Shown in pieces: positions 28,801-31,800 of a stretch of DNA of 64,000 nt (positions within the stretch are counted from its first letter, which is position 1; each line of letters begins with the position of its first letter). The translations under genes were made by a program, and so were the position numbers. The notes under the pieces are model-generated. The model was not told the origin of the DNA and did not search any database. It worked only from the letters and a program-made list of their open reading frames with translations. Origin of the DNA: Arbacia lixula (Eukaryota > Echinodermata > Echinoidea > Arbacioida > Arbaciidae); the NCBI GenBank assembly GCA_963669155.1, contig OZ022581.1, positions 5,925,561 to 5,989,560 of the forward strand, read 5' to 3'.

Positions 28801-31800
28801 TAGAAATTCAAAGAGGCAGATGCTTACAAGATGGAGGACAAGCCTACAAAAATCATGAAATAAGTAAACTTGTTAATTTTTTGACATATAGAACAATCCT
28901 AATAATTTCTTTCAGCTAATAATATCAAGTGAAGACATCTTGCTCAAATATTAGTGACACTACTTGTGAATAGTCCTGATTTTCTTTTAGAGTGAGCTGT
29001 ACTTGGCAATCGTCAACAGCTCCAATATGTTGACCATGTTCAAGGAGCTAATGTTTTTGTTATTAGGGTCTTGTTCACTGTAAGAGCCATCTAGGAAAAC
29101 TTTGAACAGCGACATAATCTACTTAAGAATAGCATTCTAGATCACATTTTCACTTACCGTATCAACCGGCAGATAAGGCGCCCCCGCACATAAGACGCAC
29201 CCCGACTTTTGAAAAAAAAAAAAAAATCGGGTCTCACATACATGTATACACATGTATGGGACTATGCATTGTGTGACAACAATCAACATCCAACAACAAA
29301 ATAGATGGCTTTGATAGCCTGACACAATAACGGTAATACGATCTCAATCACATCATCAGCATAATTACCAGTTCAAAGAAAGCACCAGAACTAGTATTTG
29401 TCAGAGATACCACAAAGAAACCGCTAGCTAGAAAGCTAAGCCCTAAGGATAACCTCCGTTAGATCAGAGCCGCTATTGTTGCTTTGATCCGGCCTCCAGG
29501 TGGCGCTGTACACCTTTTGGCCTCGGAGATAAAAAAAAAAAATCTCCGCGGACGATAATGTGAACAGCGCCACCTCGAGGCCGGATCAAAGCAACAATAG
29601 CGGCTCTGATCTAACGGAGGTTATCCTTAGGGCTTAGCTTTCTAGCTAGCGGTTTCCTTGAGGTGTCTCAGACAAATACTAGTCCTGGTGCTTTCTTCGT
29701 ACCTGTAATTATGCTGATGATGTGATTGAGATCGTATTACCGGTATTATGTCGGGCTATCAAAGCCATTTATTTTGTTGTTAAATGTTGATTGTTGTCAC
29801 ACAATGCATAGTCCCATACATGTGTATACGTGTAAGTTTGAAAGACCCGACTTTTTCTAACGCCGTGTATAAGACGCACCCGGACTTTGGCGTGATTTTC
29901 AAGGGGAAAAACATGCGTCTTATACACCGAAAAATACGGTATTTTTATTTCTTGCTATCCAGGAGAGCGGTGGAGTTGTCCTTTGCGCTCATCAACGGCT
30001 CTAACATCCGGACTATGGTCAAGGAGCTCATCTTCTTCTTGGACAGAGCGGACCCTGAGTTCAAGTCGTACACCTCATCCAACATCTTCCTGGCTTGCGA
30101 GAGGTGAGTAGCAAGGAGTTGGCATGTCGGTATTCTATGACTTGTCCTCATAAGAGCATGGAGCAAGTTTTCACCCTGTATATGCTGTATCTGTGGAGGT
30201 GTGGTGGCATAATGGTTGTGAATTGAGCTGAAGATCTGAAGGTCCCAGGGGACTAGTGTCCTTCAGCAAACTACTTAATCCACATTGCTCATCACCACCC
30301 AGGTTTATAAGTGGGTACCTGATAGGAATGGAATGAGTGTGCCTTAGTGGCTGCCATGATGCTCAATGATCCCTTGGAATTAGACAGGTGTCACAAAGAC
30401 TTACAAGCATCCAAGTACGCTTTATGATATTGTAAAGAGATAATACCGTTTCATATTCACAATATGAATATTGAATATTGTCGTCATCTATCATATTCTC
30501 TCCTATTTGTCCTTGATGTTTCATGATGTCAGGCTTGGGATGAAACCCTGGACATATATGTGATTTTCTTTCCCCTGCTTCTTCATCTAGGCACGCCCCG
30601 AACAAGAGGTGGCACATAGACACTATGATGCGCGTGCTGTCTGCTGTGGGTAATAACGTGCCCGACGAGTCGGTAGCAAGCTTGGTACAGATGATTTCAG
30701 ATTCGGCCTCGCTGCACGCCTACACTGTTCAGCAACTCTACAAGGCTGTCAAAGAGGACATCAGCCAGGTAAGCTATTTGTGGGGTTTGGCAGGTGTCTC
30801 ATGACCTTGTGTGTGACAGTGCAACTCAGTCTGGGTCTTATCCTTCTTGGGGGTGTTGTACCAAGCTGTTTGTAAGCTACGCACAACGTTACGCACAACT
30901 GGTGACCTGTTCTTGTGCTACATGTGATACCCAAACAGCTCTAGTGAGAATACACCATTGTGATGTGAATGACCGGTCCTTTGTCTTAGATTTTTCTTCC
31001 ATCCATTGGTGCTCAATGCGATTGCCATTATGGCAAGTAGCAGCATGAAAATGCTTTGGTGAGAACACACCATTATAATGTGAATGCCCTGCCTTCTGCA
31101 AAGGGTCTTACTCTTGTCTTGTTGGTTGGTGCACTTCGTATGCATCCCCTTTAATTAAACGTTCAATCTCGCAGTGTCAGAACAAAAGGATGATGAACGG
31201 TGGTGATGATGGTGATGATAATAACAATGAATATGATGAGGATAGTGATGATAATAGTGATGATGTAATATTAGGCTTGTTACCTTTGTGTCAAGCAGCT
31301 TCTCTGTAGGCTTGGCATCTGTAAAGTCTACAAAATGTCTGATACGCATTTAACAAAGTATCATTTCAATTTTTGATATTGTGCTTTGTCTTGTACTCTT
31401 GTGTCTGTGTTGTTATAAATCTATAACATCTGCTTTCGCCTCTTAGTCTTCTGAATTTGACTCACAAAATGTATGATTATTCTCCTCTTACCCTTTCTAC
31501 GATGTATTTCTCCTCCTGTATATGTGTGTGCTATCTGTATCTCCCTGCTTACCTAGCTGCTCAGTAAAATGGTCTAATCATAATTCTGTTAAAAGCAAGG
31601 GCACCCTTTCCTCCCATTGAAACAAACAGAACAAACAACATAATCACTTCATATTCTTTTAGTCTGAACAATACTCATGCCTAGGCAGCATGTGGCTCTG
31701 GAGCTGCTCTGAGTTACTAAACCGACCATACAGGTCCTTGATGCCGCAAGAAATATTGCCCCTCCCTCTATTAAAAAAGAAACCAAAGATGACTGTATAT

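Follow-up and report, generated by a model that had tools for sequence, protein, structure and literature searches.

The window (the whole 64-kb stretch of DNA that was analysed) contains an AP-1 gamma gene, which was modelled as 14 exons over positions 10541-38290: the human protein was used as a tblastn query, and GT-AG pairs that kept the frame were then sought. Five tblastn matches were trimmed by hand and one was lengthened before the GT-AG search; the outer ends of the model, the first exon's start and the last exon's end (38290), were left unset, the model has no RNA support, and C-terminal pieces of the protein that reached 44403 in tblastn lie outside it. The exons of interest are listed in Table 1 under the numbers of the original prediction, whose exon 10 comes ninth in our model. 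The end of exon 9 and the starts of exons 10 and 11 that had been predicted were the same in the gene model. The protein encoded by exon 10 matched AP-1 gamma-1 chains in PDB with an E-value of 1e-14 and AP-2 alpha with E-values of 0.48-0.86, and exon 11 matched Pfam Adaptin_N (E 1e-8, 34.7 bits, slightly below the curated cut-off of 37).

Table 1. Positions of the features around the intronic copy of AP-1 gamma exon 10.
Feature	Position	Strand	Basis
Preceding exon (exon 9)	28579..28692	+	gene model
Tandem AG: out-of-frame TTTTAG ending 28990, leading to TGA, and in-frame AG of GAG type ending 28992	28985..28992	+	sequence, spliced products
Partial exon 10 copy, 5′ half (aligned to 29973-30040)	28994..29061	+	repeat search, blastn, Smith-Waterman
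GTAAGA donor-like site, not alignable to exon 10 as DNA; in-frame TAA at 29081-29083	29080..29085	+	splice-site scoring, second-half search
Foldback (MITE-like) dispersed element between copy and exon 10	29155..29943	.	long inverted arms; ends set by eye
Parent exon (exon 10), 141 nt, phase 2-2	29963..30103	+	gene model
Following exon (exon 11)	30591..30768	+	gene model

Several other features were seen in the window. The intron before exon 9 has at 28366-28407 a run of G followed a few bases on by a run of C, a possible weak spot of the assembly, and the intron after exon 11 has at 30933-31098 two direct repeats of 51 nt that are 76% identical. An ORF at 52408-52911 on the minus strand has a Pfam DUF1731 match (E 1e-20) and probably represents an exon of a gene for an SDR39U1-like epimerase; another at 62840-63163 on the plus strand looked by eye like the C-terminal portion of a transposase of the mariner type. 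Rfam gave no matches in the 64-kb window at the gathering threshold.

Homology and uniqueness of the copy

The intron upstream of exon 10 had been predicted to hold a divergent duplicate of that exon. The repeat search aligned the two sequences without gaps, with 50 of 68 bases (74%) the same. When the 14 model exons were compared with the window by blastn, this pair had an E-value of 1e-6, and the next-best non-self match of any exon had a value of 0.023. The Smith-Waterman score of exon 10 against its own upstream intron was 178, relative to a maximum of 98 in 1000 dinucleotide shuffles, and 12 other exons scored 43-69 against their own upstream introns (at most the last 3000 nt). Chance similarity is ruled out by the blastn E-value and the shuffle test. 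The region genuinely copies the 5′ half of exon 10 and, as in a tandem exon duplicate, it is significantly homologous to an exon that neighbours it on the same strand of the same gene.

The predicted frame at 28994 was found to run free of stops to 29079 (28 residues) and to be homologous to exon 10. Its differences from exon 10 had been described as synonymous or conservative, which holds in part: 7 of the 22 codons are synonymous and 5 identical, but 10 are replaced, including S/Y, G/S, and R/L changes. The human AP-1 gamma residue agrees with exon 10 at 7 of these 10 replacements and with the copy at 1, and all three sequences differ at 2.

The genome searched was an assembly of 607 Mb in 590 contigs. 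Its COX1, on a contig of 15,740 bases, was translated with tables 2, 5, and 9; with table 9, the echinoderm code and the appropriate one, N and I stand at places where table 5 gives K and M, and the protein resembles that of a sea urchin. In the genome search the copy peptide matched itself (E 5.6e-11) and, with an E-value of 2.78, exon 10, but no third place, and an origin from another gene or paralogue was rejected on this result. The exon 10 protein found one place, exon 10, and the copy was not listed; therefore, weak relatives may escape a genome search of this kind. The nucleotide region 28693-29154 matched itself alone genome-wide, in a search that skips very common words, and carriage of the copy within a repeated element was rejected on this result. 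Neither the peptide search nor the nucleotide search of the genome found a second instance of the copy region. A pattern search for related loci gave three matches in viral contigs and 67 in genome contigs, none of which was confirmed, and the copy's 28 residues had no PDB match up to an E-value of 10. Among the matches listed in a literature search, no title or abstract opening reported an alternative copy of AP-1 gamma exon 10.

Extent of the copied sequence

The alignment ends at base 78 of the 141-nt exon 10, so that the predicted duplicate of exon 10 proved to be homologous to it but recognisable in the 5′ half alone. At 26% divergence the second half of the exon would be expected to give a score of about 171; the score observed was 31, and none of 500 simulations was that low. 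At 40% divergence, 0.4% of 500 simulations were as low as 31; both sets of simulations used substitutions without insertions or deletions. No DNA match to the second half was found in 29062-29154, where the score of 31 is at the shuffle level (p 0.90), and further tests of DNA similarity gave p values of 0.96 and, for a longer stretch, 0.98-0.99. At the DNA level, this is not a duplicate of the whole exon. There was likewise no similarity that would indicate co-duplication of intron flanks, either between the downstream flank and the intron after exon 10 (p 0.67) or between the upstream flank and the remainder of the intron (p 0.30).

At the protein level, the tblastn match of human AP-1 gamma runs collinearly to 29125 across an in-frame TAA, with an E-value of 0.23 for the whole match. 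A same-frame protein test of the second half gave p values of 0.026 with the window's exon 10 and 0.19 with the human protein, and an ungapped test of both references against random places in the window gave 0.026; over three frames, the values were 0.069 for the window's exon and 0.46 for human. This weak trace hints that something of the second half may survive, and it speaks for a once-complete duplicate, now a complete dead exon, whose second half carries the in-frame TAA along with some 12 inserted bases as marks of decay. The DNA result counts against such a history because a neutral relic should hold DNA similarity no worse than protein similarity, and the p values for the human protein alone and for three frames also speak against it. 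We regard this variant, which overlaps with the partial duplication favoured below, as unlikely.

Because the second half left no DNA trace, the donor of the copy was not inherited. Whether the second half decayed or was absent, the exon 10 donor does not correspond to the GTAAGA at 29080.

Splice sites, selection, and possible use of the copy

The predicted tandem AG acceptors and the GTAAGA donor are present in the sequence. Spliced products gave the predicted outcomes for both acceptors: with the second AG the exon has 87 nt and phase 2-2, and the joined frame is open both when the exon is inserted before exon 10 and when it replaces it, whereas with the first AG a TGA is met 14 residues past the junction. 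The frame is thus formally splice-competent, as had been claimed, but its use depends on a GAG acceptor that follows a TAG by 2 nt and on a donor that is not homologous to that of exon 10. The local alignment showed that the copy is 4 nt short immediately upstream of 28994. If the TTTTAG is the counterpart of the CAG of exon 10, the frame would be shifted, and the product would run into that same TGA.

The splice sites were scored with matrices that had the 13 model introns as their sole training set and that ignored neighbouring AGs. The score of the donor at 29080 was 3.22, below all 13 model donors (4.2-12.4, leave-one-out), and those of the two acceptors were 3.77 and 4.89, relative to 0.3-15.0 for the model acceptors. 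In 25,976 intron bases, with the copy counted, 101 site pairs scored at least as well on both sites as the pair with the 28991 acceptor, 14 of them with an open frame, and 67 pairs (11 with an open frame) did so for the 28993 acceptor; the scan covered acceptor-donor spacings of 50-250 nt and excluded 30 nt at both intron ends. The model introns end in CAG (11) or TAG (2) and in no case in GAG, and the in-frame AG at 28991-28992 is preceded by G. GAG is the poorest acceptor and is outcompeted by a TAG directly upstream. The whole word GAG is absent from the main text of PMC3250501.

The dN/dS comparison proposed with the original prediction was carried out by fitting a codon model to the copy, exon 10, and the human protein under four combinations of kappa and background omega. 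The best grid omega for the branch of the copy was 0.2-0.3, which points to constraint, but omega = 1 was worse by a 2dlnL of only 1.4-2.2 and was not rejected. Background omega was worse than the best by 2.8-6.2, and neutrality fitted better than background-level constraint in all four settings. The test is a weak one, with 22 codons and one outgroup that is protein only and whose branch was at its upper bound in two of the four settings. The test did not distinguish neutrality from relaxed constraint for the copy. The copy and exon 10 differ at 6, 2, and 10 first, second, and third codon positions, respectively, so that third positions hold 10 of the 18 differences, as in a constrained frame; this excess should be due in part to exon 10 itself. 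The open frame of the copy says little because 22 codons also stay free of stops in 53-84% of neutral simulations (probabilities of 0.84, 0.73, 0.66, and 0.53 at 0.15, 0.25, 0.35, and 0.5 substitutions per site). The copy may have been used once and then have died.

We consider use of the copy as a poison or cassette exon to be improbable on this evidence. It is similarly doubtful that the truncated copy acquired a new donor and was exapted in a sea-urchin lineage as a new exon of cassette or poison type. The AP-1 gamma trunk, otherwise highly conserved, would in that case have a control specific to the lineage, or a 29-residue variant.

An in-frame, 87-nt alternative exon could act in two ways: as a cassette it would add 29 residues ahead of exon 10, or it would take the place of exon 10. 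The two open joined frames agree with this, as do the best omega and the lower likelihood of omega = 1. However, the need for an acceptor of GAG type, which ends 0 of 13 model introns, placed 2 nt behind a TAG, the non-homologous donor, the loss of 18 of 47 codons on replacement of exon 10, the better fit of neutrality than of background-level constraint, and the low relative alignment score given below make this use very unlikely.

A poison exon of 89 nt, running from 28991 at the first AG to the GTAAGA at 29080, with the TGA inside it leading to nonsense-mediated decay that tunes the AP-1 gamma level, would have an acceptor of ordinary strength, a donor with GTAAG, and a product with the early stop, but it is highly improbable given a donor weaker than every model donor and equally good pairs as frequent as 101 in 26 kb, and the coding homology is no evidence for it because a poison exon requires none.

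The foldback element, the probable order of events, and comparison with known exon classes

The foldback element between the copy and exon 10 has arms of about 300 nt, with 275 of 296 aligned bases the same, and TA at both ends, which we take to be a mariner-type target. Its first 366 bases, used as a query, gave 80 matches among the best 40 of 897 candidates genome-wide. In the 40 copies listed, which are the best-scoring candidates only, the 39 others were 95-97% identical to this element in the first arm, and the second arms matched its first arm at 78-94% (91% for its own second arm). Dating of the insertion by arm divergence was dropped, since the second arms differ across the 40 listed copies and the difference is hence a feature of the family. 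The 95-97% identity to other copies fits a young insertion. The age of the exon copy was estimated at 0.24-0.26 substitutions per site under neutrality and at 0.86-1.11 under the best-fitting omega, and because of these estimates the copy would predate the element on either view. Without the element, about 190 nt (979 minus 789) would separate the starts of the copy and exon 10, which is the spacing expected for a short tandem duplication.

From this combination of homology, extent, splice sites, and neighbouring element, it appears very probable that the copy is an old partial tandem duplicate that has been decaying as a pseudo-exon and that a young foldback transposon later parted it from its parent exon. 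A tandem duplication, with no recognisable intron flank, would have placed a copy of the 5′ half of exon 10 in the upstream intron of the same gene. With no inherited donor and with its frame shifted behind the likely ancestral acceptor, the copy would then have decayed and presumably lost its function, gaining replacements where exon 10 and human AP-1 gamma agree, before an abundant foldback transposon inserted between the two. It would now be removed with the intron on splicing and have no specific role, and transcripts that include it are presumably absent. Counting against a relic are the best omega of 0.2-0.3, the 68 nt without a gap, acceptors within the range of the model, and the weak protein signal of the second half. 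Of the three readings in the original prediction (alternative exon, poison exon, or relic), all of which assumed a duplicate origin that is borne out here, the relic fits best, and use as an alternative exon was unsupported.

As a relic, the copy would be a small, well-bounded case of partial exon duplication and decay, and it cautions against taking the mere presence of GT and AG as proof that a sequence is splice-competent. Its use, were it real, would show a way for half an exon to acquire a new donor and become part of a core trafficking adaptor.

The copy resembles mutually exclusive tandem duplicated exons, as these are described in PMC3228551 and PMC9013439, in being homologous to an adjacent exon, in lying within one intron, in its 2-2 phase, and in having GT-AG sites available; it differs from them in its relative score, its non-homologous donor, and its GAG acceptor behind a TAG. 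PMC3228551 gives as criteria for such exons a length difference of at most 20 residues, AG and GT sites with one reading frame and no in-frame stop, a relative BLOSUM62 global score of at least 15%, and expression of the exons singly. The lengths of 141 and 87 nt differ by 18 codons, and suitable sites with a stop-free frame are found with the second AG only. By our own re-implementation of the score, rather than the program of the authors of PMC3228551, the relative value was 18/234 = 0.077 at gap costs of 10/2 and 0.145 at 10/1, below the default threshold of 0.15. Poison exons are like the copy in that use of its first AG would bring a premature stop on inclusion; the copy differs in deriving from coding sequence. 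A pseudo-exon is defined by a frame-shift, a stop, or a missing correct splice site, and in the copy the likely ancestral acceptor is out of frame and the inherited donor is missing. The copy is also like a pseudo-exon in its homology to a neighbouring exon of one gene on one strand, and it is unlike one in that it is recognisable in its 5′ half only and that a formal in-frame route remains.
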